DNA of 49,629 nucleotides from a virus, in the IMG/VR virus record IMGVR_UViG_3300035698_001683, positions 1 through 49,629 of that record; one strand, written 5' to 3'. Each line of letters begins with the position of its first letter. Position 1 is the first letter of the stretch. Positions 2,548 to 39,325 of this stretch are shown piece after piece. The position numbers and the translations under genes are program-made. The notes below the pieces were generated by a model, which saw only the letters and a list, made by a program, of their open reading frames with translations, did not search any database and had not been told where the DNA came from.

Positions 2548-2664
2548 ATGAACACATTAACAACTAAGATAATACAATTAGCAATAGACATTGTTAATAC
2601 ATTCTATAACAACATGTTATTGATAGCAGTATCAGTAACTCTAATCACTACCATAGGAGCATAA
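2548..2664 (+). CDS. Small single-pass membrane protein, 38 residues
   Basis: ATG 2548 follows AATGGAGATACC. The product has a short amphipathic N-terminus and a hydrophobic C-terminal segment (NMLLIAVSVTLITTIGA), so it is a tail-anchored or holin-like mini protein. It precedes the 337-residue gene by four bases. Confidence 0.5.
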   Translation: MNTLTTKIIQLAIDIVNTFYNNMLLIAVSVTLITTIGA

Positions 2665-2668
2665 GAAT

Positions 2669-3682
2669 ATGCCTAACATTACACTAACAACTATATTCAT
2701 TACTAATAACGTTATCAAGAGACAATTAGATGACACCACATGGGCATTAAGAGATGAGTTAATAGTAACATGGTTATCTGACAGGGCTAATGGAGAGATA
2801 TTATGCACTGTTAAACCACAGGACATGTGGTTAGCTAATGATTACCTAGATGATGGAGCTATTAAGGTCTTTGATAGAGTGCCTACTAATCGAGGCATCA
2901 CAACAGAGCAACATGTGCAAGTGATGCAACAGGCCGAATGGTGCCCTGATGAGAATGTGTACATGCCAGTTGATGATGACTTTGAAGAGCATCTAATACA
3001 ACAAACAGAAGGCTATTACGAGACACCTCAAGATATGTCAACTGAGCTACAACTAGAGTTCGTTAATCGTTGTTATGCTGCTAACCTCACAAGGAATGGA
3101 GAAACAGGAGCAAACACTGAATATCGTCAGCATCTGATTGATGTATGTAGTGAAGCAATACGTGATGACTTTAACAATTGGGCAGCGTTTGAATGCGAAG
3201 AAGATAGTCATTGTAAGGGAGTTGATACTAGCTACCTAACAGATAAAGAAGTAGAGAATCTTTACCTCGGATTCGGGGTAACACAAGAGGAGTTCTTAGA
3301 CAAGTACTGCTCATCATTAGCACCAATGGAGAAGACCATGATAGAATACAAAGAACTGTTTGATGATACAACAATGTCAATAATCAAGGAGGGGCTTACG
3401 GAGTTCATGCCACCTAATGGGAAGATGCTGTTTAAGTGGCATATGCTAGAAGGTAGTGAATGGCTTGATGAAGATACAACTAGAACGCCAACTGGGATAT
3501 TAGTTGAGCGAGTATACGGTAATGAGACCATAACCTTGGTACAGGAGAAGATAATGACAGAAGAAGAGCTGCTTGATGCACAGAATAAGCTGATACAGGA
3601 CTTAGACGCTGGGGTAGTAGAACATACTCCTGAGCTACAAGCTGAGTTCGATCGTATCGATAACCTTTTAAATAACCTATAA
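2669..3682 (+). CDS. Acidic protein of unknown function upstream of the RNA polymerase
   Basis: This 337-residue protein is strongly acidic, with many Glu/Asp-rich helices (PVDDDFEEHL, ECEEDSH, KIMTEEELLDAQ). I see no catalytic motif. It sits 13 bases before the RNA polymerase in the same operon and is translated from its own AGGAGC site. Possible roles are a partner of the phage RNA polymerase (that enzyme is short at its N-terminus), a host RNA-polymerase inhibitor, or a DNA mimic. None is shown by the sequence. Confidence 0.6.
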   Translation: MPNITLTTIFITNNVIKRQLDDTTWALRDELIVTWLSDRANGEILCTVKPQDMWLANDYLDDGAIKVFDRVPTNRGITTEQHVQVMQQAEWCPDENVYMPVDDDFEEHLIQQTEGYYETPQDMSTELQLEFVNRCYAANLTRNGETGANTEYRQHLIDVCSEAIRDDFNNWAAFECEEDSHCKGVDTSYLTDKEVENLYLGFGVTQEEFLDKYCSSLAPMEKTMIEYKELFDDTTMSIIKEGLTEFMPPNGKMLFKWHMLEGSEWLDEDTTRTPTGILVERVYGNETITLVQEKIMTEEELLDAQNKLIQDLDAGVVEHTPELQAEFDRIDNLLNNL

Positions 3683-3695
3683 TTGGAGAATCACC

Positions 3696-5855
3696 ATGAC
3701 AAACCAACCAACACAGACTGCAATGGCAGTAAGTAAGTCGTTCCGCTTCAAGGCTGAACAAACGATTGACGAGAGTCAAATCATTCTAGATAACATACAA
3801 CACAAGTCCAGTGGCTTTATCGCTACAAGACTGTTACGTGCTCTAGAGAAGCAAGAGATCATCTATCAAGATCTGTTCATTGATGAAGGGGGAGTGCCTG
3901 CTAAGGACTATCACTTTGTTCATGAAGGCTTTGATATGAGGGAAGTGGCTATGATAGGAGTACAATTAGCAGGATTGATTGTATACCTAGACGTACCTAT
4001 GGTGTTAGAAGATGTAGCGAATGCTACTTATACTTACAAGAGCTTCAGGACAATAGCGAGAAGCAATGCTAGTATAATACCTAATGTCTTCGATAAGGGT
4101 ACAGACAATAAAGCCCATTGGGTGATGAAGGTTAAGAAGGCTATACACCTTGCTATTGCAGCAGGACTTATAGACTACGATGCTACAGATGAGACAATCA
4201 AGAGATCTAAGGCTTACATCAGTACTTGCATTAGTAGAGCAGGAGTTGCTCATCAGACACAGAAGATCACTCTAGAGAACAGAAGGAAGGAGAGAGTTAA
4301 GACTCGCTTCAATCCTCATAAAGATGGTACAAGTGGTAGGGTAAGGTCAGCTATGGAGTTCATAGAAGATCAAGCTCAGGTTATCAACGTAGAACTACTG
4401 GAGGTGATCAACGAGTACATGGAAGAGATAGCGAAGACCAACAAGGACTTACCTGAGATCTTACGAGATAGCAGTCATGTTATAAAGGGCTGTAACGCTC
4501 TAGTTGGTAAGGGGGATCTACACTCTGAATACTTCGCTGATCTCAGAGGTAGACTATATCAGTTTGCACACGCTGGACCTAACCCACAATCTAGTGACCT
4601 AGCTAGAGCATTGTGTTATCACAACGTTGAGAATGTGACTAATAAGTATATAATGGTAGCTGACGCTGATAACCTAGTGCCTACTGATACTTACGAGATA
4701 TTCATCAGCGAGTTAGAGAATGAGGTATGTGAAGGTAAAGCTGAACTATATAGTGAGAAAATGCTAAGGAGTGTAGCTGCTAGACCACTGGAGTGTTTGA
4801 CACACTTCTTGTCAACAGGCTTACCAATTAAGAAGTTCTTCACCTATATGGCATTGGCTAAAGATTGGGTATCGTTCGAAGATAACAATCAAGCTGATTG
4901 TAGAATAGGCTTTGGACCTGATGCTAAATGTAGTGGAGCACAGTTACTAGCTATCCTAGCTGGTTGCGAGGACTTAGGAGCTGCTTGTGGATTGACCACA
5001 GCGGAAGAAAGACCTAAAGACCCTTATGTTAGATCAACGGATGAGATTGAGAAGTTGACACCTAACAGTCCTTACTTACCACTAACTAGGCCAGAGATTA
5101 AGACTCCCTTCATGGCTATACAATACGGTGGAGGAGTGCCTGCTCTAAGATATAAGAAGTTCGAGCCTAGCCTAGATAGAATAGGTGTACCAGCAGGTCA
5201 AAGAGATAAGTTCTGTAAAGATGTGGTGATTAGAGGTATATTGAACTCCCTCGGACCGAAGGTAACAGCTCTTATAGATGGTCTACAACAAGCAGCATCT
5301 GCTGTGATTAGTGAGAGTGGTAAGCCATACTTTGAATATCGTCACATTGATGGGTTCAAATGTACTAAGAAGGGTGAGGCTAAAGTTGCATTAACAGCTG
5401 AGCCGTTTAGAATAAATTACGGTGATGTTGATACTGATGCTGTAATCTTTGGTTCATTCGAGGAGAGTAAGGGTGGTAAGCGTGGTTGGTCAATAGATAG
5501 TAATACTACTGGACCACTACAAAGACAGAACTTTACTCACTACTTCCCTGTTCACTTCATACAAGGGCTAGATGCTGTAATAGCTAGAGAGATAGCTAAT
5601 CAAGCGAAGGCTATGGGCTTAGAAGGATACACGTCAATACATGATCAGTTTAGAGTATGCTTAAGGGATGCTCCTAAGATGAAAGAAGTGGTTGCACTTG
5701 CTTACGAAGAAGTGTTTATTAATAACAACCCACTCTTTGCATTACAGTCTCAACTGAAAGGTGTGATGATTAAGACACTTAACCCACTAGAAGGAATAAA
5801 GCAAATTGTTACACCAGAGGTATTACGTTCTCAGAACGCTTTCTACTTCGAGTAA
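3696..5855 (+). CDS. T7-like single-subunit DNA-dependent RNA polymerase
   Basis: This 719-residue enzyme transcribes phage genes from its own promoters. All core motifs of the T7 RNAP family are visible: DLRGRLY at about residue 282 (T7 has WRGRVYA), motif A with PDAKCSGAQ giving catalytic Asp409, motif B K469...YG with Tyr477 eight residues on exactly as in T7 (K631/Y639), and motif C IHDQF with catalytic Asp650. At 719 residues it is shorter than T7 RNAP (883), mainly on the N-terminal side that handles promoter binding and RNA exit, so promoter recognition may differ. The start ATG follows TTGGAGAATC. It is followed by a 1.1-kb untranslated region. Single-subunit RNAP in a contractile-tailed phage is the hallmark of Chaseviridae. 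Confidence 0.95.
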   Translation: MTNQPTQTAMAVSKSFRFKAEQTIDESQIILDNIQHKSSGFIATRLLRALEKQEIIYQDLFIDEGGVPAKDYHFVHEGFDMREVAMIGVQLAGLIVYLDVPMVLEDVANATYTYKSFRTIARSNASIIPNVFDKGTDNKAHWVMKVKKAIHLAIAAGLIDYDATDETIKRSKAYISTCISRAGVAHQTQKITLENRRKERVKTRFNPHKDGTSGRVRSAMEFIEDQAQVINVELLEVINEYMEEIAKTNKDLPEILRDSSHVIKGCNALVGKGDLHSEYFADLRGRLYQFAHAGPNPQSSDLARALCYHNVENVTNKYIMVADADNLVPTDTYEIFISELENEVCEGKAELYSEKMLRSVAARPLECLTHFLSTGLPIKKFFTYMALAKDWVSFEDNNQADCRIGFGPDAKCSGAQLLAILAGCEDLGAACGLTTAEERPKDPYVRSTDEIEKLTPNSPYLPLTRPEIKTPFMAIQYGGGVPALRYKKFEPSLDRIGVPAGQRDKFCKDVVIRGILNSLGPKVTALIDGLQQAASAVISESGKPYFEYRHIDGFKCTKKGEAKVALTAEPFRINYGDVDTDAVIFGSFEESKGGKRGWSIDSNTTGPLQRQNFTHYFPVHFIQGLDAVIAREIANQAKAMGLEGYTSIHDQFRVCLRDAPKMKEVVALAYEEVFINNNPLFALQSQLKGVMIKTLNPLEGIKQIVTPEVLRSQNAFYFE

Positions 5856-5948
5856 CACATTCCGTAGCCTCTTAGTTCGTTAGGAGGCTATAGAATAGGT
5901 TGCCTACGCCTAGAGATAACCCTGCGGGGTGGTCTGTCTTCACTTACA

Positions 5949-5971
5949 GGTCAAGAAACTTGCCCAAAAGG
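5949..5971 (+). other. GGTC-hairpin motif, copy 1
   Basis: GGT-CAAG-AAA-CTTG-CCC followed by AAAAGG. The stem has four inner pairs, a T x C mismatch and two outer G-C pairs. The same architecture with different inner pairs recurs at 6093 and 8187. Confidence 0.55.
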
Positions 5972-6092
5972 AAACAGCGAGTGACAAGAGACTTGTCCAC
6001 AAGGACACAGTAGTCTCCCACAGTCACCAATGCACGAATTCGTGATCTCTTTAGTATAGGAGGTTATAACACCCACGGTTACATAACGAGGA

Positions 6093-6116
6093 GGTCAGCT
6101 GGCGCTGCCCAAAAGA
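6093..6116 (+). other. GGTC-hairpin motif, copy 2
   Basis: GGT-CAGC-TGGC-GCTG-CCC followed by AAAAGA. The inner pairs AGC/GCT replace AAG/CTT of copy 1, so pairing is kept while sequence changes. The T x C mismatch is conserved. Confidence 0.55.
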
Positions 6117-6566
6117 GCTTGGTAGGTACACCACTTACTAAGAACCACGGTAGGGTACTCGGTAAGAGTCATACCACGATGTTTCTGTTTGCATCACAGG
6201 TTCTTCGCACTCATAATGTAACGATAAGTCCGTCTTAGGTAGGATTACTAGGGTAGGATGTCTGTCACAACTCCTCACTAATCCTAATACGTGAGTGATA
6301 CTGTAACGACACCTAGTAACTAAGATGGGCTGTACAAGAGTGATATGTTGTAACCTTGCACTACTGTAGTGGAGCTGGTTACTCCCTTACTTGCACTATA
6401 TATCAGGTTGGCTTGTAATTAGACGACCGCTAGTAGATTGAACTCCGCTAGTAACAATTTGGTATAGTGCCAAGTATGTCATGGGGTAGCTGTGAGGTTA
6501 CAAGATATTATTCAACTGAAGCATAAAGACGATGAGGTTAGCGCAGCTAAACCGATTCCCAAGTAT

Positions 6567-6579
6567 AACTAAAATAAGT
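6567..6579 (+). promoter_or_regulatory. Repeated AACTAAAATAAGT element, copy 1
   Basis: This 13-mer is identical to one at 8354-8366. Both lie outside annotated coding sequence, both follow a hairpin by 8-14 bases (GGTTAGC/GCTAAACC here, GTGAC/GTCAC there), and both precede a gene or RBS-like site. Candidate phage promoter or processing signal; two copies are thin evidence. Confidence 0.25.
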
Positions 6580-6986
6580 CAATCAAAGGAGGGTAAATAC
6601 TATTCACCTACACGGTGTGTGACTCTACGAGTATGTCAAGCGGTAACTTCTTGGTGTCGTAGACACAATATGATGATGTCTGTGTTAGCGTGTGGTTACG
6701 ATTGTTAACGGCAAAGTAGAGCCAAGGCGACTGCCCTTCATCGACCACAAAGCTATACCACCCATGGTCTCCAGACCGTATGTCCCATTGAATTGTAAAC
6801 AAGTTTATCATATGGTATGTTCCATACAGGCTCTCAATTCCCTGTTGTTACCCATATTGTATGTACGTCTTGTTAACCCTATTGAATGTCCCATTCCCTG
6901 AAGTAACTGTATCGTGCAGTTGCACAATGGGTTGTAATACAATAATAAGTTAATGCTGGTTAGATTTACTCAACAGGAGAACCTAT

Positions 6987-7178
6987 ATGAAAAGACTAAG
7001 AGAGTTAGTTCACCACCGAGAACTAAAACGTAGAAAATTAGAACAGGTGAAACACGAGTTCCAGAACATACAGTATGATGTTGTACAGGAATTAATTACC
7101 ACAGGCAGAGTTGACATGTTCAATGTAAATTGGGCGAGACTCAACAAAGAATGTGAAATGCCTAAACAGAAAAGATAA
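6987..7178 (+). CDS. Small basic hypothetical protein
   Basis: This is a 63-residue protein with a highly basic N-terminal helix (MKRLRELVHHRELKRRKLEQVK), suggesting nucleic-acid binding or a coiled coil. The start follows CAGGAGAACC, the ribosome-binding site used repeatedly by this phage. It is the first gene after region B. No family recognised. Confidence 0.6.
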   Translation: MKRLRELVHHRELKRRKLEQVKHEFQNIQYDVVQELITTGRVDMFNVNWARLNKECEMPKQKR

Positions 7179-7190
7179 CAGGAGAACCTT

Positions 7191-7532
7191 GTGGCATTTA
7201 TAAAAGAATCAATACAAGTAACAGACTTAACAGTAACCCTTAAAGTAGGTTACATTGAGATGTTTATCGAACGCGGTTACATCAATCAAATAATATCTAA
7301 CGCGGGGTCAACTGATCCTAGAAGAGTTACTCTGGTGATGTCAGTATTTAATAAGCATTTAGACCAAGTGCAACGGTACGCTACCCACGTTGGTAGTGGA
7401 GTGCCTATAGTAAAGCACGAAAAGCCAGAACTGGTAATAACATACAAGAAGCCAGAATTATGCAGTATATGTGGACACGAACCTGTGTCTGAATTTGAAC
7501 CAGATGTAGAAATTATGCATCACCCAGTGTAA
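7191..7532 (+). CDS. Hypothetical protein with C-terminal zinc-finger-like motif
   Basis: This 113-residue protein uses a GTG start at 7191 preceded by CAGGAGAACC. The first two thirds look alpha/beta (VTLKVGYIEMFIERGYINQII). The C-terminus contains LCSICGHEP and later HH, which could coordinate zinc. No family recognised. Confidence 0.6.
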   Translation: MAFIKESIQVTDLTVTLKVGYIEMFIERGYINQIISNAGSTDPRRVTLVMSVFNKHLDQVQRYATHVGSGVPIVKHEKPELVITYKKPELCSICGHEPVSEFEPDVEIMHHPV

Positions 7533-7543
7533 GAGAGAATCTT

Positions 7544-7675
7544 ATGAGTTACTTTACACCACGCGATATAGAAAAGATATGTGACATAGGGAAGTATCTA
7601 TGTGACATAGGAATATTCTGTTGCGCACTTGCTGCATTGTACCTGATAGTTTACGGAGAATGTTATGGAGTTTGA
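7544..7675 (+). CDS. Small membrane protein, 43 residues
   Basis: ATG 7544 follows AGAGAGAATCTT. The product has a polar N-terminus and a hydrophobic Cys-rich segment (IGIFCCALAALYLIVYG), so it is probably single-pass. It overlaps the start of the next gene by 11 bases, suggesting coupled translation. Confidence 0.5.
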   Translation: MSYFTPRDIEKICDIGKYLCDIGIFCCALAALYLIVYGECYGV

Positions 7676-8000
7676 TTTAAACACCTTAGATGTAGTGGTA
7701 TCAATACTAGTTGTGGGCTTATTAATATGGCTAGTAACGTGGGCAGAGGAAGACGCAGAGCAGAAGCATAAGAAGCTGAATCCTAAACTGTTAACATTCA
7801 CCTGCTTTATGGATAATGAAAAAGAACCACCATGCCCTGTTACAGGGAAGTTGTGCGGATTTTACGCATATCAAAAAGATAGGAACGATGAAGTAGTACT
7901 AGAGTTTTGTAACCATTACCAGAATCCTTGTGACGAGGAAGGTAATTGTGAAGACTACCTATGCCCACTATTAATTGGGCGTCCATTAAATAAGCTATAA
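7665..8000 (+). CDS. Membrane-anchored cysteine-rich protein
   Basis: This is a 111-residue protein. The N-terminus is a transmembrane helix (VVSILVVGLLIWLVTWA) followed by a charged linker. The soluble part holds several Cys residues (FTCFMD, PPCPVTGKLCGFYAY, EFCNHYQNPC, NCEDYLC), suggesting zinc binding or disulphides. RBS ACGGAGAATGTT. Function unknown. Confidence 0.6.
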   Translation: MEFDLNTLDVVVSILVVGLLIWLVTWAEEDAEQKHKKLNPKLLTFTCFMDNEKEPPCPVTGKLCGFYAYQKDRNDEVVLEFCNHYQNPCDEEGNCEDYLCPLLIGRPLNKL

Positions 8001-8008
8001 GGAACGAT

Positions 8009-8185
8009 ATGTGTTCAATATTACCAATAGACTTTGATAGTAAGTCATACGAGAGTGACCAACAAATAAGAAAGGCTCGTATGTCTGTACCAAGAATAAC
8101 ACAGCATTGCGGGAATTGGCGATGCATAGAAACACCACAGCTCAGCGCAAGGAAGTGCCCTGTGTGCGGTTGGCACCAGAAATAA
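8009..8185 (+). CDS. Small zinc-ribbon-like protein
   Basis: This is a 58-residue ORF starting at ATG 8009 with AAGGAACG upstream. It contains HCGNWRC and CPVCGWH at the C-terminus, giving four potential zinc ligands. The next frame is open across its stop and continues to 8303; see the ORF at 8223. Confidence 0.5.
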   Translation: MCSILPIDFDSKSYESDQQIRKARMSVPRITQHCGNWRCIETPQLSARKCPVCGWHQK

Positions 8186-8186
8186 C

Positions 8187-8208
8187 GGTCAGCAAAGCTG
8201 CCCCAAAG
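8187..8208 (+). other. GGTC-hairpin motif, copy 3
   Basis: GGT-CAGC-AAA-GCTG-CCC followed by CAAAG. It has the inner pairs of copy 2 and the AAA loop of copy 1. It lies between two small genes, which shows the motif is not confined to region B. Confidence 0.55.
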
Positions 8209-17183: not shown

Positions 17184-17930
17184 ATGTTCAAGAAAGCAAC
17201 GAAACAATCAGCAGGCGGGACTGGCGTTGAAATGTCAGCACCTATACTAACACCAGGTTCTTATCCTGCACGTGTTGTACAAATAGTAGACCTCGGAATG
17301 CAACCAGGATCAACAATGTATCCTGAGCCTAAGCTCAAAATGGAATTCAGATTCGAATTACTAGATGAGTTCATGGTTGATGCAGAAGGTGAAGAGTTAG
17401 AAAACAAACCTCGATGGTTTAGCTACGAGCTAACTTACAATGAAGACGGCTACATGGGCGAACGCTCAAATATCTATAAAGTGTTTGATGCTTTAGACGG
17501 ATTTGAGAAAGAAATAATTGAATTACTTGATGTCCCTTGTATGCTAGCAATTGCCAAATCTTTAAAAGCAGATGGTAAGACTGAAAAGAATAAGATCACT
17601 GGTGTAGCAGCGATGAGGGAAAAAGATGTAGCAACTGCAGCTAAGCTCCAGAACCCTACTCTATATTTCTCTTTGAATGACCCGAACATGGAAGCATGGG
17701 CTAAGCTATCAAGCAAAGGTCAGTACTCACAACAGAACAAAATCAAGACAAGTTTAGAGTTACACTTAACGCCCCTAGCAAAGCTACTTAACCCTGAAGG
17801 CACTCCTGCTCCAGCAGCCGTTACCCCTACTAAAGCAGTAGCTGCCCCTGTTAAGACGGCTGAAGCTGAGCCTGAACCTGCGGGATCTATAGAGCCAGCA
17901 GCAGCAGACGAAACAGACCCTTTCGCGTAG
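17184..17930 (+). CDS. Phage single-stranded DNA-binding protein
   Basis: This 248-residue protein has an OB-fold-like N-terminal two thirds (SYPARVVQIVDLG..., PKLKMEFRFELLDEF) and a Pro/Ala/Lys linker from about residue 205. The acidic tail ends DETDPFA, matching the acidic C-termini of phage SSBs such as T7 gp2.5. It coats ssDNA and recruits polymerase and helicase through the tail. Located between DNA polymerase and exonuclease with a CGGAGAAG site. Confidence 0.85.
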   Translation: MFKKATKQSAGGTGVEMSAPILTPGSYPARVVQIVDLGMQPGSTMYPEPKLKMEFRFELLDEFMVDAEGEELENKPRWFSYELTYNEDGYMGERSNIYKVFDALDGFEKEIIELLDVPCMLAIAKSLKADGKTEKNKITGVAAMREKDVATAAKLQNPTLYFSLNDPNMEAWAKLSSKGQYSQQNKIKTSLELHLTPLAKLLNPEGTPAPAAVTPTKAVAAPVKTAEAEPEPAGSIEPAAADETDPFA

Positions 17931-17939
17931 GAGAACCTC

Positions 17940-18965
17940 ATGACTGAAGAATTAGAAACCCCAAAAGTATTTGAAGAGTTGCTAATAGATGGAGACTTAT
18001 TAATATTCTCGAGCTGTGCAGCCATTGAATACGGGAAGGAGGCGAAGGATATAAACTTCTCACAGATAGCAAACAATATAGACGCTCGGATTATGAACAT
18101 GAAGCGTAGACTTGGTGCTAAACGAGTGAGAGTGTTTCTATCTGGTGCTGACAACTTTAGATTTGTTGTTCAGCCTGATTACAAGGCTAACAGAAAAGAC
18201 GCATGGAAACCCTACAACCTACCGAATGCTCAAGCATATGTAACAACTATGTATGACGCTGAGTTGAAAGACGGCTTAGAGGCAGATGACCTACTATGCA
18301 TGGCTCAAAAAGACGATGATTCCACTGTGATAGCGACTATCGATAAAGATATTCCGCAGTATCACGGGTGGCATTACAGTTGGGAGACCCAACATAGAGG
18401 CGAGAGACTCTACAAAGTCGTAGGTGAAGGGGAACTAAACATAGAACTCCGTGGGAAGCAAAAGAAGAAAGAAGTTAAAGGCAACGGTCAACGCTTCTTC
18501 TTCTGGCAGCTACTAACAGGAGATCCAACAGACGGCATCATGGGCTGTGGGAAGAGGGCAACTAAAGTATTCAAATCAGGTAAGAACATAGGCAAGCAGT
18601 ACCAGTCCAGAGATGGAGTAGGCGCTATTGCAGCATATGACTTGTTAAAGTTTGCTATTACCCCTGCCAAATGCCTTAAGATTGTTATGGCACAATATAG
18701 GAAGCGATTCGGAGATGAGTGGGAGACCCAGTTATTAATGAATGGACGCTGTCTATACATGGTCAACGAGCAGCAAGGTGATCAAGTTCAACTATGGCAT
18801 TGGATGAGTGTGTTACGCACTTTAGATGACGCAGCAGAGTTTGCAAATCTAAGAAACATCACTATAACAGCTGAAAAGATGCTTAAAGTTCGAGACAATA
18901 AGATGAATGGTTCATGGTTTGGTCTTACAAGTCAAACAATAGAGCCACTAAAGATGGAAGGTTAA
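17940..18965 (+). CDS. 5'-3' exonuclease (FEN/T7 gp6-type)
   Basis: This 341-residue protein is a FEN-family nuclease that removes RNA primers and degrades DNA from 5' ends. Visible are the N-terminal metal site LLIDGDLL, the helical-arch segment with PDYKANRKD, GLEADDLL, IATIDKDIPQ, and the helix-hairpin-helix-like LLTGDPTDGIMG. The order and acidic residues fit phage exonucleases close to T7 gp6. Start after TAGGAGAACC. Confidence 0.9.
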   Translation: MTEELETPKVFEELLIDGDLLIFSSCAAIEYGKEAKDINFSQIANNIDARIMNMKRRLGAKRVRVFLSGADNFRFVVQPDYKANRKDAWKPYNLPNAQAYVTTMYDAELKDGLEADDLLCMAQKDDDSTVIATIDKDIPQYHGWHYSWETQHRGERLYKVVGEGELNIELRGKQKKKEVKGNGQRFFFWQLLTGDPTDGIMGCGKRATKVFKSGKNIGKQYQSRDGVGAIAAYDLLKFAITPAKCLKIVMAQYRKRFGDEWETQLLMNGRCLYMVNEQQGDQVQLWHWMSVLRTLDDAAEFANLRNITITAEKMLKVRDNKMNGSWFGLTSQTIEPLKMEG

Positions 18966-32027: not shown

Positions 32028-33452
32028 ATGACTATCCCTATTTCACATGTTGTAAACGTTAATCTAACGTTAGCAGCGAGTGCTGTTGCCCTAAAAGGCT
32101 TTGGTCAGTTATTAATGTTGACGGATGAAATATCCCCAACAATGCCTCTAAAAGCTAGAAGCCGTAAATACGCGACTTTAGCAGAGGTTGAAGTAGATTG
32201 GGCGATAGGTACAGAAGCGTACAACGCGGCTCTACCCTTCTTCGCACAGAATGCTTCAGAATACAGTGTAGGCTTAGCCTCACCAGCTGCTACTGCTGCT
32301 GAGTTAACAGGGGGCAATGCCCACTCAATCTTAGCAGATATCAAACTTATCACAGCTGGTGGTTTTACTATCTCTGTAGATGGAACCCCAGAAGTACTAG
32401 CAGCTTTAGACTTCAGCTCAGCCGCTGATTTAGCAGCCTGTGCTACAGTAGTTGATACTGCTCTATCCGGAGCAGTGTGTACTTACGATTTAGTTGCAGG
32501 AACATTTGTAATTACCTCTAGTACAACAGGTGCAACTTCAATACTACTCTTCCCAACAGCGGACGTAGGTGGCACAGTAGCCGCCTTAGCATTATCCGTA
32601 GGCGCATCTATCTTCAACGGAGTGGCTATCGAAACTCCTGCAGAAGCCCTAGCTGCAATCAACGCGGATGATGATTCATTTTATGGCGTTGTACTTAATA
32701 AGAAATGGCGAGACGATGCGGTACTCACAATAGCTGTCGCAACATGGGTGGAAGCAAGCCAGAAGATGTTCTTCAACACATCTAACGACCCTGTTTGTAT
32801 CACGAACGGTACAACTGACATCATTACAGCCTTGCAAGCTATGACATTAGATAGAACCTTATCTAGCTATAGCTCAACTGGAGTAGAATACCCTTCTTCC
32901 TCAGTAGCAGGCAGAGCATTTATCGTGAACTTTGAAGGTACTAATACTACCATCACTTTGAACCTGAAGCAAGGACCAACTATTACAGTTGAAAGTATGA
33001 CTACAGCAGAAAAGACTATCCTTGAAGGGAAAAGTGGGAACGCGTTTGTTGTAATCGCAGGTTCAAATATGTACTCGGACTCTAGATTAGCAAGTGGCAA
33101 ATGGTTTGACAGCATCCACGGCACAGACTGGCTAAAGAACAGAATTGAGACTGATGTCTTTAATGTCCTGTTCCAAAGCACAACAAAGATCCCTTATACC
33201 GATGCAGGTGTAAGTGTAATTCGTCAAGCAGTAGAAGGCGCCCTAAGACAAGGTGTTACTAACGGCTTAATTGCCCCAGGTAATAACTTACTTGGAGTAT
33301 ATATGCCTCTCGGTTATATCATTACGATTGTACCAGTATCAGATGCTTCTACAGCAGACAAGAATGCGAGATTATATCGTGGTATGAGCTTCGAAGCAGC
33401 AGGTGCTGGCGCGATTCAAAAAGTAATCATCACTGGCGACTTCAACGGGTAA
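32028..33452 (+). CDS. Contractile tail sheath protein (DUF3383 type)
   Basis: This 474-residue sheath subunit has an N-terminal ISHVVNVNLTLAASAVALKGFGQLLML, Ala/Thr-rich middle insertion, YSSTGVEYPSSSVAGRAF, and a conserved C-terminal region IPYTDAGVSVIRQAVEGALRQGVTNGLIAPG with YIITIVPVSD, all typical of DUF3383. This is the clearest evidence that the phage is a myovirus. RBS AAAGGAAAGAA. Confidence 0.92.
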   Translation: MTIPISHVVNVNLTLAASAVALKGFGQLLMLTDEISPTMPLKARSRKYATLAEVEVDWAIGTEAYNAALPFFAQNASEYSVGLASPAATAAELTGGNAHSILADIKLITAGGFTISVDGTPEVLAALDFSSAADLAACATVVDTALSGAVCTYDLVAGTFVITSSTTGATSILLFPTADVGGTVAALALSVGASIFNGVAIETPAEALAAINADDDSFYGVVLNKKWRDDAVLTIAVATWVEASQKMFFNTSNDPVCITNGTTDIITALQAMTLDRTLSSYSSTGVEYPSSSVAGRAFIVNFEGTNTTITLNLKQGPTITVESMTTAEKTILEGKSGNAFVVIAGSNMYSDSRLASGKWFDSIHGTDWLKNRIETDVFNVLFQSTTKIPYTDAGVSVIRQAVEGALRQGVTNGLIAPGNNLLGVYMPLGYIITIVPVSDASTADKNARLYRGMSFEAAGAGAIQKVIITGDFNG

Positions 33453-33461
33453 GGAAGGTAC

Positions 33462-33917
33462 ATGAAACAATATAGTTTTTATAGCGTCGATTTAATAATC
33501 GACGGACTCACTATGGAAGGATTCGCAGATAGCTCGGCTATCATTTCCGCAGGAAGATCAGCTCCTCAACACGGCAAAGTAATGGATGCTCGTGGTAAAA
33601 TGATTTCTATCACATCAGCAGACAAGTCAGGTGCAATGACATTTGACTTACTGCAGACCTCTGATAGTAACGCATTACTACAGTCACTAGCATTGCTTAC
33701 TCATGAAGCTGGTACCTCTGGAAACAGCGATACTTTTATACCCATACAAGCCGCTATCGTGGACAAGATGGGAAAAACAGTTGTGACAGGTGTTAATGGT
33801 TTTATTACTATGCAACCTGGTGTAACTAGAGGAACAGGACTATCTACTAACACTTGGCTCTTAGAGTTCGAACAGTTATGGATTATCCGTGGACAAACAT
33901 CAGACGTTGGTGTTTAA
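33462..33917 (+). CDS. Tail tube protein (DUF3277 type)
   Basis: This 151-residue protein has QYSFYSVDLIIDGLTMEGFADSSAI at the N-terminus and a beta-rich body with MTFDLLQTSDSNALLQSL, the pattern of tube proteins that follow DUF3383 sheaths. Hexameric rings form the inner tube. RBS AAGGAAGG. Confidence 0.85.
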   Translation: MKQYSFYSVDLIIDGLTMEGFADSSAIISAGRSAPQHGKVMDARGKMISITSADKSGAMTFDLLQTSDSNALLQSLALLTHEAGTSGNSDTFIPIQAAIVDKMGKTVVTGVNGFITMQPGVTRGTGLSTNTWLLEFEQLWIIRGQTSDVGV

Positions 33918-33930
33918 ATAGGAGAAGCAA

Positions 33931-34338
33931 ATGGCGTGCACTGACCACCACAGGGAAATCGACGATAAGCCTGTGTATGTAAAACAGTGGGCTGCTTCAA
34001 AGTCTCTAGAGAACCTTGGCAAAGCTTTATCAATATTTGGGGCAAATTTCGCCCCATTTGTTGATGGAGACTTCCATATGGGTGACATAGTAATTTTGTT
34101 AAGTAACGACCCAAAGAAGACAATGGACTTAATTAAAGATTTCAATTGTGCTGCAAGAATAGATGGACACGAAGTCACTCTTGCAACATTCAACAAAGAA
34201 TATAACGGTGAACTACTGTACGTATTCAAGATATTCTCGTTTGTATGCGAGGTACAGTACAAAGATTTTTTCGAGCAAGGGCAAACGTTAAGCCCACAAC
34301 CAATCGAGACCACACCGACGACGACGACGACCCCTTAA
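33931..34338 (+). CDS. Tail assembly chaperone, short form
   Basis: This 135-residue protein sits between tube and tape-measure genes, where phages encode lambda G/GT-type chaperones that coat the tape measure during tail assembly. It carries a slippery heptamer T TTT TTC at 34266-34272; ribosomes slipping -1 continue into the overlapping frame to 34529. Without slipping it ends in an acidic/Thr stretch at 34338. RBS TAGGAGAAGC. Confidence 0.8.
   Translation: MACTDHHREIDDKPVYVKQWAASKSLENLGKALSIFGANFAPFVDGDFHMGDIVILLSNDPKKTMDLIKDFNCAARIDGHEVTLATFNKEYNGELLYVFKIFSFVCEVQYKDFFEQGQTLSPQPIETTPTTTTTP
34266..34272 (+). other. Programmed -1 frameshift site (T TTT TTC)
   Basis: In-frame codons are GAT TTT TTC, giving the canonical X XXY YYZ heptamer. 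After a -1 slip reading resumes at base 34272 with CGA and stays open to 34529. The position before the tape-measure gene is where this signal is conserved in tailed phages. A clear downstream pseudoknot was not identified by eye. Confidence 0.75.
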
Positions 34339-34529
34339 CAGTCAAACCTAAGTCTATATCAGAAGAATACCCTGAAATAGATTTTTATTTGATGAGACCG
34401 TTACTACAGGAGCCACGTCTATGCCACCTAAACGAATTGCAAGACGGTACATATAGTTTATATGACGTCCACGTGATGCATGAGATATTAGATTTCAGAA
34501 GCCAAATGGCGGAAGATACAAAAACATAG
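34272..34529 (+). CDS. Tail assembly chaperone, frameshift extension
   Basis: It is translated only as the C-terminal 85 residues of a fused 199-residue protein after the -1 slip. The sequence contains a DDDDD run and then IDFYLMRPLLQEPRLCHLNEL, a helical style usual for the T domain that contacts the tape measure. It could alternatively start on its own at an internal ATG, but no strong ribosome-binding site is seen. Confidence 0.7.
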   Translation, partial: RARANVKPTTNRDHTDDDDDPLTVKPKSISEEYPEIDFYLMRPLLQEPRLCHLNELQDGTYSLYDVHVMHEILDFRSQMAEDTKT

Positions 34530-34537
34530 GACTACAC

Positions 34538-37500
34538 ATGGCTACTGACAAGGGTAAACTTACACTAGGGAAAGGTGCTGGCTACAGTACTAATCCCGAA
34601 GGTAGAATAAAAAAGAATAGAACAGTAAGTTCCCTAGGAAGTTTCAACGAAGTACCACCTAAGGCAGCGAGAGTTAGGAGAGCGTACTTGCCTAAAGGGC
34701 AGAGTACAAAATACGTAACCACAGGGGCTACAACCACTAGAAAAGCAACACACTATTTTGATAAAGGGCACAAAGATTACCAGAAGATGGTGACGTCAAC
34801 CCCAACAAAATACTCTAGTACACCCTACGGAAAGAAACAAAATTTCAACACAGCGTTCCAATCAACATTATTAGATACCATATTGAGCGATGAAGACAAT
34901 CCGTTCCAATATGAGAAGAGTGTGATAGAGACTGCACAAGAATATACAACTCCAGAGCAAGTGCTCGCAGGGTTTATAAACCAAGCAGGACCAAATGTTG
35001 CACAAGCATTTATACAATCAGCTAAAGAGGCTATAACAAATCCTGATATAACATCAGTTAGCGCAGCCTCTTTCCACAGCAGTACTAACCCTGCGGAAAA
35101 ATTAGCTTACATGAGTAAGTACGCTATTGGTGGAACTTTAGATTTAAGCAAAGTAGCAACAGAAGTTAGTGCTGGACATAGAAGGGAACACCCAGGTTTA
35201 GCCCAAACAAGTTACGACCTTATATCAAGGAAGTTTGACAGAGCAGACCAAGACTATCACGAACTAGTGAAGTCAAAGACTCCGATGGAGAAGATGCTGG
35301 ATGTAATGGGTGCTAGAACAAGGTCAATGCAATCCTCAAAGCAGGATGTACTATCTCCAGACAAACTTGACGTGAGCATGGCACATCCACAAAAGTTTAA
35401 CCTGCACGCTGAAACTACTATGAAGGCTTTCAGAGGCTTGGCTAGTCTTTACCTCCCAAAAGAGATAGAAGGTGACGCAAGAGCACAAGCTAAAGATAGG
35501 ATAGTAACAGGTCTAGCAAAGATGATGCCACGCAAGTTAGCGGATTACGCTACAGTAGCATCAGGACTTAAAATTGGCGAAGTGCCAGACCCATGGAGTG
35601 TCACTCTACCTTCAATGGGCGAGATGTACCCCCATGTCGAGAAATCTACAAGGAATATATTAACAAACCCGATGGTCTCGAAAGAAACCAGACCTCTAGT
35701 AAACCAGTATATTAAGGAAGTAAAAAATACTACAAGCTTTAGGAACGAGCGAGGCTTAGAGAGTACCTTTAACCCTCTATACAAAGAGCCTAAGTACATA
35801 GCTGATGAACTGGCAGCGGCAGGAATGGATCCATCTAACATGGTTCTAAGCCAAGAGGCTGCAAGAGACCAGTTATACGAGTTCAGAACTACTAGAAACC
35901 CTGTTGAAGCATTAAATGCAGGGTTAGGAATCTTAGGATTAAACGCAGTTGACTTACAAGATCCAATGAACGCTATTAGGGTAAGGACAGTTTTACGAGA
36001 TGGGCTAGATAGTGACAAAACTTTTAGGGCTAGTGTACAAGCTACCATAAATCCAGGAGCGGACTTAAACACTGCTATTGACAAAAGAATAGGTGTCCTA
36101 AAACATCAGGGTACCTCTGTCCTTGCTGCAATGGGTCAGGAAAGCATAGCTCAGTCCGCAGCAATCAATGCCGCGATGGGTGGGGAATTAACCAAAAAGA
36201 ATGAAGCGAGGGCTACAGCAATCAAACATGGTTTGCAGAAAGCCCGAGATGGAAGGAACTCTAATATGAAAGTAGTTAAAGATGAAACAACTCTCCAACT
36301 GGAGGCAGAAGCGTTATACGCAGCTTCGTTGTCAGCCCCGTTGATGGAGCCAAGCAACTTTAGCGATGGGAACACCCAACCCGGTCTTAGAGATGGTTGG
36401 AAGGTCTTCCAAAAAGGGATAAGCAACCAGACCCCACAACAGGCTCAAACAGAGTGGCTGAAGAAAAATCCACACTTGAGATTGATGGGTGGCGATGGTA
36501 AAAGATCTGATGGGACTATGGATGAGGAAGTGAACGCGGCTTGGATGAAAGAAAGAGCTGCACGTGCACCATCCTCAATGCTAGCCAAGATGCATGGCGA
36601 AGCCCCTAGTGATACTTCAGGACCAGCTTCAGCAATACTAAAAGCGAACCTTGGTATTGATAGCAGTGGCAATATAGATAATGCCTTTACTAGATCAGGA
36701 GACAAATTAGAAGATGTAGCATTAAATTACTACAGAAAGAATTACGAGTCTTCTGCCTTTGACGTGGGTTTGATCACAAATCGCCTGTACCCTGGACAAT
36801 CCTCAACACCGGATGCTATGGTGAGTAGTGCAAATAAAATTGTAGAAGTCAAGTCACGGCAAGGGCGTGTTATAGACACAAAGAACGCCACAGGCAGTGA
36901 CATGAAAGAGCTGCAAAAGAACTATATGCAAATGCAACATCAGATGATGATGACTGGAGCCTCTTCAGGGGATCTAGTGCAGATAGCTCGTGGAGCAAAT
37001 ACTAACTTACCTGCCTCATTAACTCCGGAAGGAGTAGCAAGTGACTTTGACGTAAGAAATTATGAAAGAGATGACGAGCTAATAAACCGTATGAAGCCTG
37101 TCTGGTCGGCTGTTGCTGGCAATGCAAGTAAGATTTCCAACCTGAACGAAGGGGACAAAAAGATATTAGCTGAGGCAGTTGCTAAAGGCAATGTAGAATC
37201 TTTTGAAATCCTAGCTGAGAAGCACGGTTTAGATACTGCTACAACTGGTTACAGCCTTGGGAAAGGCGGTGGTGGTAGAAAAGGTGGCGGTGGTGGACCT
37301 AAGGATAAGGGATGGTACGACTACATAGCTAGCAATAAAGGTGGAATGTCAGCATCACAACTAACACATTCCAAACTAGCAATGGGCGGTAAATTTGCCA
37401 GAGGGCTCAACGTAGCTGCCACAGTAGCTAGCGCAGCAGTTGATGTCGGCAAGAGCATGAACGATAGTTTCCTAACTAAAGCTTACGGAGCTAGTTCTTC

Positions 37501-38254
37501 AGGCATGTCAGACAGCCTGTACTTAGAAGAGAGATCAGAGCTAAGAAGTGCATTCAATATGAGTGACGAAAGAGCTACTAGCAACCTACAAACATTAGCA
37601 GAAGCCTCTGGCGGTATGCGAATGGGACAGATGGGAGGAATGGTAAATATAGTTCAAGGCTCCCTAGGATTGTTAAGTGCAGACGACGTCTACGGCTACA
37701 GAGGAAAGAAAGGTGAAGCCACTGCCCTCATGCAGAAGATGAGGAAAGCAGGTGAGAACCGTGGCTACGACGAAATGGAGTGGGCTGCTATAGCAAAGAA
37801 GACAGGCTTGACTGCTGCACTAGCAACAGAGAAAGGTTCTAGCTCAGCTGAGAAAGGTATAAACACCGCAGCGGCTGTAACTCAACAAGTGGCATTAGAG
37901 TTAATGGCAGGCGGTGTTCAGAAAACAGCGGATGCCGCTACAAGCATATATGAGTTTATAACAAGTGACCCGAAGGCACGTACCCCAGGAGTCGAAGGTG
38001 GCGCAAGGTCAATGCCGGACTACATGCTGACAACTAAGTCAGGAGGTCTACCTACATTTAATGCAGACGACCTAAAGGAAGACAAAAGAAAGAGTACGAA
38101 GACAGCGCTACCATTTTATCCGGCACACGGGTTCGGTGGCTATGCCGCTGCACTACAAGAAGTTAAAGTAACCGTAGAGGCGAAAGGAGACTTAGCGGCA
38201 ATAGTAGAAGACGCTAAGAACAAAAACCCAGCAGCCGTTGGGACTGACCACTAA
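34538..38254 (+). CDS. Tape-measure protein with embedded lambda-exonuclease-like domain
   Basis: This 1238-residue protein sets tail length and is normally ejected with DNA. Residues 1-640 are helical without enzymatic motifs. Residues about 650-870 match the lambda-exonuclease/YqaJ PD-(D/E)XK pattern: RAARAPSSM...(TAS-like), KLEDVALNYYRK with Glu725, STPDAMV with Asp759, VEVKSRQ with Glu770 and Lys772, YMQMQHQMMMTG with the Gln motif near 798-802, and VRNYERDDELI. Glu725 to Asp759 is 34 residues, as between Glu85 and Asp119 of lambda exonuclease. A Gly-rich linker (GKGGGGRKGGGGG) and a helical C-terminus with a weakly hydrophobic stretch follow. The tape-measure role is from position after the chaperones. 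Confidence 0.85.
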   Translation: MATDKGKLTLGKGAGYSTNPEGRIKKNRTVSSLGSFNEVPPKAARVRRAYLPKGQSTKYVTTGATTTRKATHYFDKGHKDYQKMVTSTPTKYSSTPYGKKQNFNTAFQSTLLDTILSDEDNPFQYEKSVIETAQEYTTPEQVLAGFINQAGPNVAQAFIQSAKEAITNPDITSVSAASFHSSTNPAEKLAYMSKYAIGGTLDLSKVATEVSAGHRREHPGLAQTSYDLISRKFDRADQDYHELVKSKTPMEKMLDVMGARTRSMQSSKQDVLSPDKLDVSMAHPQKFNLHAETTMKAFRGLASLYLPKEIEGDARAQAKDRIVTGLAKMMPRKLADYATVASGLKIGEVPDPWSVTLPSMGEMYPHVEKSTRNILTNPMVSKETRPLVNQYIKEVKNTTSFRNERGLESTFNPLYKEPKYIADELAAAGMDPSNMVLSQEAARDQLYEFRTTRNPVEALNAGLGILGLNAVDLQDPMNAIRVRTVLRDGLDSDKTFRASVQATINPGADLNTAIDKRIGVLKHQGTSVLAAMGQESIAQSAAINAAMGGELTKKNEARATAIKHGLQKARDGRNSNMKVVKDETTLQLEAEALYAASLSAPLMEPSNFSDGNTQPGLRDGWKVFQKGISNQTPQQAQTEWLKKNPHLRLMGGDGKRSDGTMDEEVNAAWMKERAARAPSSMLAKMHGEAPSDTSGPASAILKANLGIDSSGNIDNAFTRSGDKLEDVALNYYRKNYESSAFDVGLITNRLYPGQSSTPDAMVSSANKIVEVKSRQGRVIDTKNATGSDMKELQKNYMQMQHQMMMTGASSGDLVQIARGANTNLPASLTPEGVASDFDVRNYERDDELINRMKPVWSAVAGNASKISNLNEGDKKILAEAVAKGNVESFEILAEKHGLDTATTGYSLGKGGGGRKGGGGGPKDKGWYDYIASNKGGMSASQLTHSKLAMGGKFARGLNVAATVASAAVDVGKSMNDSFLTKAYGASSSGMSDSLYLEERSELRSAFNMSDERATSNLQTLAEASGGMRMGQMGGMVNIVQGSLGLLSADDVYGYRGKKGEATALMQKMRKAGENRGYDEMEWAAIAKKTGLTAALATEKGSSSAEKGINTAAAVTQQVALELMAGGVQKTADAATSIYEFITSDPKARTPGVEGGARSMPDYMLTTKSGGLPTFNADDLKEDKRKSTKTALPFYPAHGFGGYAAALQEVKVTVEAKGDLAAIVEDAKNKNPAAVGTDH

Positions 38255-38269
38255 GATAAAGGAGGTTCT

Positions 38270-39325
38270 ATGTACAAACGAGTAATAAGGCTAGAAGCCA
38301 GTAATTTCAGTGACAACGAGCCTATATTTACTACAGTAGAACATAGAATCTCTTTTGAACTAGAAGTCGGGTTAGCCCAAGGCTTAGCAATGGCTAGAGT
38401 GCAAATTTATAACCTAGCCATAGACCAAATAAAAGCATTAACAAGATCAGACATTGAATCAATAAGTAGTGGTGATGGAAAGAACAACAGGCAACTGGAA
38501 AAAGTTCGCATAAAATTATTTGCAGGCTACGAAGACGAACTGGACGACGAAGGGAAGCCACCTTTAGTAATAGACGGGTTTGTTATGAACTCAGCTAGCC
38601 TAAAGAAACTACCTGAAAACATAACCTTCCTCTACGTAATAGCCTCTGGAAGTAACTTATTAATACAAGATTTCACAACGTTTAGTACCCCAGACAGTAA
38701 AAGTACTCCAATGAAAGTGAAAGATGTTATACTCCGATTATGCGTTGGCGATGAAGGTGCGGGCTACGAGGCTGCCAATATAAATTTTGACTCAGCCCCT
38801 GTGGCGATAATGGAAAAGCCTGTCATAGCTCACACTTACACCAACGGTGAGAAAGGGTTGATAAAAGCCTTAGACGAAGTTGCTGAAGAGTTCCACTTTA
38901 ATTGGGGCACTAGGGCAAACGGGATAGCAATATACCCCCTGCTAGCAGACAGTGCCAAAGACTCCAGCGAGTTTAACGTGCTAATAGCAGGCAAATCTTT
39001 GAAAATAAGCCCTCTAAAAATACGAGGAACCCCACTAACTGGAATGGCTACAATACAGATACCACATAACCTAGATGCTACATTGATTCCAGGTTTGCTG
39101 ATAGACGTAGGAGACCTGAAAGGTCTAATAGACTACACTCATCTTGGAGAGACAGTGTACTTCACAGATGATATATGGAAATACGCGGTGTTCCAGTACT
39201 ACATGGTGAAGAAGATAATTCATAAAGGGGATACCCACGGTAGTGATTGGCAAAGCACTATATCCTGCATGTTCCCTTCCTCTGGAAAAACATCAGACAA
39301 CGAAATAAAACAACCCAAGAAATAG
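38270..39325 (+). CDS. Baseplate hub protein
   Basis: This 351-residue protein has an N-terminal part with RISFELEVGLAQGLAMARVQIYNL and VRIKLFAGYE, typical of hub proteins related to P2 gpD/T4 gp27. The middle holds KGLIKALDEVAEEFHFNWG. It should form the trimeric hub joining tube and spike. Strong AGGAGG site 10 bases before ATG; follows the tape measure as in most myophages. Confidence 0.75.
   Translation: MYKRVIRLEASNFSDNEPIFTTVEHRISFELEVGLAQGLAMARVQIYNLAIDQIKALTRSDIESISSGDGKNNRQLEKVRIKLFAGYEDELDDEGKPPLVIDGFVMNSASLKKLPENITFLYVIASGSNLLIQDFTTFSTPDSKSTPMKVKDVILRLCVGDEGAGYEAANINFDSAPVAIMEKPVIAHTYTNGEKGLIKALDEVAEEFHFNWGTRANGIAIYPLLADSAKDSSEFNVLIAGKSLKISPLKIRGTPLTGMATIQIPHNLDATLIPGLLIDVGDLKGLIDYTHLGETVYFTDDIWKYAVFQYYMVKKIIHKGDTHGSDWQSTISCMFPSSGKTSDNEIKQPKK

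Follow-up and report, generated by a model that had tools for sequence, protein, structure and literature searches.

A predicted lambda-exonuclease-type domain in the tape-measure protein of a Chaseviridae-like myovirus

The window, by which we mean the whole 49.6 kb stretch of viral DNA analyzed here, is the record of a myovirus related to Chaseviridae. Its gene content includes a phage RNA polymerase, a DNA polymerase, a primase/helicase, a terminase, and sheath, tube, and baseplate proteins. No terminal repeats were seen in the window at 15-30 bases, so the record is probably incomplete. The largest open reading frame (ORF) encodes a protein of 1238 amino acids and is flanked by genes for a tail assembly chaperone and the baseplate hub (Table 1). 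In a gene-order comparison, the position after the chaperone is the tape-measure slot in all annotated relatives. This ORF encodes the tape measure of the phage, and the identity given to it in a first-pass annotation of the same DNA is thereby upheld. Ahead of the tape measure, the two tail chaperone frames overlap (33931-34529), an arrangement that suggests a programmed frameshift. The replication block encodes a separate PolA-type 5'-3' exonuclease, which is unrelated to the tape-measure domain described below. Between the DNA polymerase gene and this exonuclease gene, positions 17184-17930 encode a conserved protein that scores 71.2 bits against the NGO0469 phage replication-initiation family, narrowly below the cut-off of 75 bits.

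Table 1. Coordinates of the tape-measure gene, its domain and predicted active-site residues, and the neighboring and replication genes discussed in the text
Feature	Coordinates	Strand	Basis
Separate PolA-type 5'-3' exonuclease, replication block	17940..18965	+	phrog_107; PF02739 below cut-off
Tail sheath protein	32028..33452	+	phrog_205, E 2.5e-101
Tail tube protein (virion structural)	33462..33917	+	phrog_280; position
Tail assembly chaperone	33931..34338	+	phrog_11820
Second chaperone frame	34245..34529	+	ORF overlapping first chaperone; frameshift access possible
Tape-measure protein, 1238 aa	34538..38254	+	Largest ORF of window; position as in annotated Chaseviridae
Predicted lambda-exonuclease/YqaJ (PD-(D/E)XK) domain, residues ~657-870	36506..37147	+	Pfam PF09588, AlphaFold2, Foldseek
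R673, lambda R28 equivalent, predicted 5'-phosphate binding	36554..36556	+	Alignment; invariant in both subfamilies
E725, lambda E85 equivalent	36710..36712	+	Alignment
D759, lambda D119 equivalent	36812..36814	+	Alignment
E770-V-K772, lambda E129-x-K131 equivalent	36845..36853	+	Alignment
Q798-M-Q800, lambda Q157 motif equivalent	36929..36937	+	Alignment
Glycine-rich linker, residues 907-921, after domain	37256..37300	+	Same place in most relatives
C-terminal region homologous between both subfamilies' tape measures	37325..37843	+	hhalign
Baseplate hub	38270..39325	+	phrog_196

The first-pass annotation had placed a lambda-exonuclease/YqaJ-like nuclease domain inside this tape measure, and independent profile and structural comparisons agree. 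Pfam YqaJ (PF09588) matches residues 669-808 with 36.1-40.8 bits (E 1e-8 to 1e-11), above the curated cut-off of 22 bits, and PHROG families of exonucleases (E 3e-60) and RecE-like exonucleases (E 1e-11) match the same stretch. The NCBIfam lambda-exonuclease family TIGR03033 gives a significant score of 46.9 bits (E 3e-12), yet one under its curated cut-off of 68.05. A profile built from 18 viral sequences, comprising the segment and its relatives, retrieves LHK-Exo (6e-39) and lambda exonuclease (4e-19) from the PDB. The AlphaFold2 model of the segment has a pLDDT of 88.8 and a pTM of 0.87, and it adopts the expected PD-(D/E)XK fold; its best solved structures in Foldseek are LHK-Exo (E 9.6e-8) and lambda exonuclease (3e-6). 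In the other subfamily, the corresponding segment of Erwinia phage Y2 is modeled less confidently (pLDDT 78.3, pTM 0.78), with lambda exonuclease (6.8e-11) and then LHK-Exo as its best structural matches, and the Y2 domain also finds lambda exonuclease (E 2e-3) and the exonuclease of Arthrobacter phage Isolde (5e-9) by direct tblastn. A chance motif as the explanation of the domain is ruled out by the Pfam, profile, and fold matches. The sequence and model comparisons thus describe a tape measure in which a predicted lambda-exonuclease-type domain is flanked on one side by the N-terminal part and on the other by a C-terminal part attached through a glycine-rich linker. As a helix, the 1238 residues are computed to span 186 nm, or 146 nm without a 266-amino-acid segment; tails reported in the family measure 116-166 nm (PMC12842549). 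In a scan for membrane-spanning segments, the most hydrophobic stretch of 19 residues averages only 1.1 on the Kyte-Doolittle scale.

Within the domain, lambda exonuclease residues R28, S35, E85, D119, E129, K131, and Q157 align with R673, S680, E725, D759, E770, K772, and Q798. All of the latter, together with W669, Q800, R844, and D845, were verified at their coordinates. The spacing of 34 residues between E725 and D759 is, as first noted, that of lambda exonuclease. In an alignment of 8 full-length Nefertitivirinae-type tape measures with 3 from Cleopatravirinae, the residues that never vary within the domain include W669, R673, G721, E725, D759, E770, K772, Q798, and Q800, so that the active-site residues are conserved in both subfamilies of Chaseviridae. 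Two observations go beyond the first-pass annotation: R673 matches the 5'-phosphate-binding R28 of lambda exonuclease, and the domain is present family-wide. The lambda enzyme uses D119 as a bridge between its two Mg ions, coordinates Mg A through E129 and D119, and activates the water with K131 (PMC6199318). By sequence, the active site of the tape-measure domain is intact, and the domain is predicted to be catalytically competent.

The YqaJ domain occurs exactly once in each of 13 other Chaseviridae-type records (13/13), always inside the tape measure, ruling out that it is peculiar to the window genome. The frames that bear it have ~1207-1290 codons, and 12 of the 13 matches exceed the curated cut-off. 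A free-standing YqaJ copy was found neither in these 13 records nor elsewhere in the window. The public records of pAh6-C (4608-8202) and Spp001 (2624-6084) show the tape-measure reading frame broken up into two or three ORFs. Several more distant matches were rejected as tape measures. Those in IMG/VR (L038-L043) are free-standing exonucleases of ~200-290 amino acids, and the two neighborhoods that were read, those of L040 and L043, resemble recombination gene blocks. The P19250A match is a free-standing gene adjoining a recombinase. In bacterial genomes, tblastn found no relative. A combined alignment is too divergent for a further scan of the collection.

The tape measures of the two subfamilies differ in domain content: in Cleopatravirinae (6/6), a C-terminal SLT transglycosylase domain accompanies the nuclease, and this domain is absent in Nefertitivirinae and the window. 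A glycine-rich linker directly behind the nuclease domain is present in most tape measures of both subfamilies and absent in those of Shewanella phages. The regions after the linker are homologous between the subfamilies (hhalign probability 98.0%, E 2e-13; controls 0.2-2%), and for this reason the tape measures of both are orthologous. In the domain tree each subfamily is monophyletic, which fits either one or two entries of the domain into the tape measure. The shared place in an orthologous protein and the homologous C-terminal region favor a single entry.

The nuclease domain is under purifying selection, with a pairwise omega of 0.02-0.17 in pairs with estimable dS. Residues 721-920 of the window tape measure are about twice as conserved as the remainder of the protein. 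In one pair of near-identical tape measures from each subfamily, Y2/Fougasse and ZPAH14/LA93P1, the domain forms an island of raised synonymous divergence whose edges are sharp and lie near the domain borders in both pairs. Domain dS is 0.65 versus 0.11/0.20 in one pair, and 0.44 versus 0.10/0.02 in the other. This sequence pattern suggests cassette exchange by recombination. In a third pair, Y2/SSEM1, the main divergence island lies further downstream in the tape measure, indicating that the protein is mosaic in general.

Together with its own DNA, the phage probably delivers into the host an exonuclease whose activity is predicted. By LC-MS, the tape measure of phage 4HA13 ranks with the most abundant proteins of the virion (PMC9699118), and that of lambda is ejected and contacts inner-membrane proteins (PMC13190303). 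Members of the family have linear, non-permuted genomes bounded by terminal repeats of ~3 kb (PMC12842549), and every infection therefore brings in fixed duplex ends. Our leading reading, a tentative one to which we give a little under an even chance, is that the tape-measure nuclease is delivered with the DNA and resects the repeat-bearing ends of its own genome for circularization or RecBCD avoidance. The domain would exit the tail with the DNA or just ahead of it, fold or assemble inside the cell, and load onto the first duplex ends that it would meet, those of the linear phage genome entering the cell. Within the direct terminal repeats of ~3 kb, resection of the 5' strands would expose complementary 3' strands, and these overhangs could anneal to give a circular genome. 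The same 3' overhangs would be poor RecBCD substrates; long overhangs block RecBCD loading.

A more specific form of this proposal, which we regard as slightly more doubtful, is that the ejected tape measure itself constitutes a lambda-type exonuclease ring on the incoming genome ends, coupling injection to resection and circularization. One virion could supply one such ring, because resolved tape measures are mostly trimers, as in diffocin and phage phiCD508 (PMC11329794, PMC11948020), and lambda exonuclease resects 5' strands as a toroidal homotrimer (PMC9512822). Hexamers may also occur among tape measures (PMC11329794), which counts against the one-ring proposal. One trimer, moreover, can serve only one genome end at a time, which weighs against end resection more generally. 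The assembled lambda-type trimer is wider than the tail tube lumen, and its passage would therefore require an unfolded or staggered state. Lambda exonuclease is also processive, and an unrestrained processive enzyme could destroy the genome that it is proposed to prepare. Finally, no recognizable RecT, Erf, or Rad52-type annealase was matched in 12-13 Chaseviridae records, the RecT search covering the 13 relatives only; the usual exonuclease-annealase pair is therefore missing, a further point against end resection, although an annealase of a new type may be encoded.

The missing annealing partner also speaks against an alternative, in our view unlikely, in which the nuclease acts late in the producing cell as a recombination or concatemer-processing exonuclease and is packaged into virions only incidentally. 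No second YqaJ exonuclease is encoded by these phages, and the tape measure, as a phage late gene product, is made when concatemers are abundant, both of which suit such a role. Yet the replication block already holds its own PolA-type 5'-3' exonuclease, and a low-copy carrier sequestered in the tail lumen would be a poor supply route for a replication enzyme. Rather improbable is the idea that the domain is a weapon of competition or take-over, which at entry destroys other linear DNA such as co-infecting phage genomes or host ends, its cassette-like exchange reflecting an arms race. The sharp-edged divergence islands in two independent near-identical pairs look as if the domain had been cassette-swapped, and Tme, a tape-measure-like effector of a contractile injection system, bears a nuclease domain (PMC11126660); however, the third pair has its island elsewhere in the tape measure, and the few molecules carried by each virion would not clear a cell. 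Lambda-type exonucleases require a duplex end, which removes intact host DNA and circular plasmids from the list of substrates. Among the functions that the first-pass annotation had offered, cutting of intact host DNA is disfavored as the least likely on account of this end dependence.

Slightly less probable again is a role without cleavage, in which the domain clamps the leading genome end in the tail and guides its exit. The fold binds duplex ends, and the tape measure sits immediately in front of the DNA. The metal ligands and the catalytic lysine are nevertheless fully conserved even though the domains of the two subfamilies are only ~20% identical, which points to catalysis rather than to binding alone. 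It is very improbable that the protein is not a tape measure at all, being either misannotated or a separate enzyme of recombination, an exonuclease joined to tail-like sequence. Several records do name the gene exonuclease or tail fiber, but every relative has it in the post-chaperone tape-measure position, it is the largest ORF, and its orthologue in 4HA13 is a major virion protein annotated as the tape measure. Resection of the phage's own genome ends, for all the points raised against it, remains the reading that we prefer.

In the literature searched, with most subscription journals and all preprints outside its scope, there is no description of a nuclease in a phage tape measure. The first-pass statement that no tape measure with such a fold had been described holds to that extent, but in databases some of these genes are already labeled 'exonuclease' or 'YqaJ'. 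Tape measure, tail fiber, and virion protein are the labels in other records, so that the two parts of the annotation have yet to be joined. The components are known, and their combination in a phage tape measure appears to be undescribed. Little is known about what becomes of the ends of phage DNA within seconds of entry. SNIPE-type defense systems act at entry through the tape measure. A nuclease found family-wide in tape measures, including those of the laboratory-accessible E. coli phages 4HA13, GJ1, and ST32, makes virion-delivered DNA processing directly testable, and would bring DNA nucleases into the set of enzyme domains that phage tape measures are known to carry.

Compared with lambda exonuclease, LHK-Exo, and YqaJ, the predicted domain shares the fold, the PD-(D/E)XK site, the 5'-phosphate-binding arginine, the Q-x-Q motif, and a C-terminal RDD/RDE motif. 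The known members, however, are free-standing proteins of ~200-230 amino acids, usually encoded beside an annealing protein, whereas here the domain is buried in a 1238-amino-acid virion protein and no such partner was found. Tape measures with peptidoglycan hydrolase domains, such as those of TM4 and phiIPLA35 and the SLT-bearing ones of Cleopatravirinae, likewise carry an enzyme domain for entry, but their substrate is the cell wall, while here it would be DNA. Pne1 of MAC contractile structures, as cited in PMC11126660, also ties a nuclease to a contractile tail-like particle; according to that citation, it is a separate effector and a non-specific DNA/RNA nuclease. The closest published precedent is Tme of the Streptomyces davawensis contractile injection system, a tape-measure relative with a nuclease domain (PMC11126660). 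Its nuclease is a C-terminal EndA-like endonuclease rather than a lambda-exonuclease fold, and it belongs to a bacterial injection system rather than to a DNA-delivering phage.
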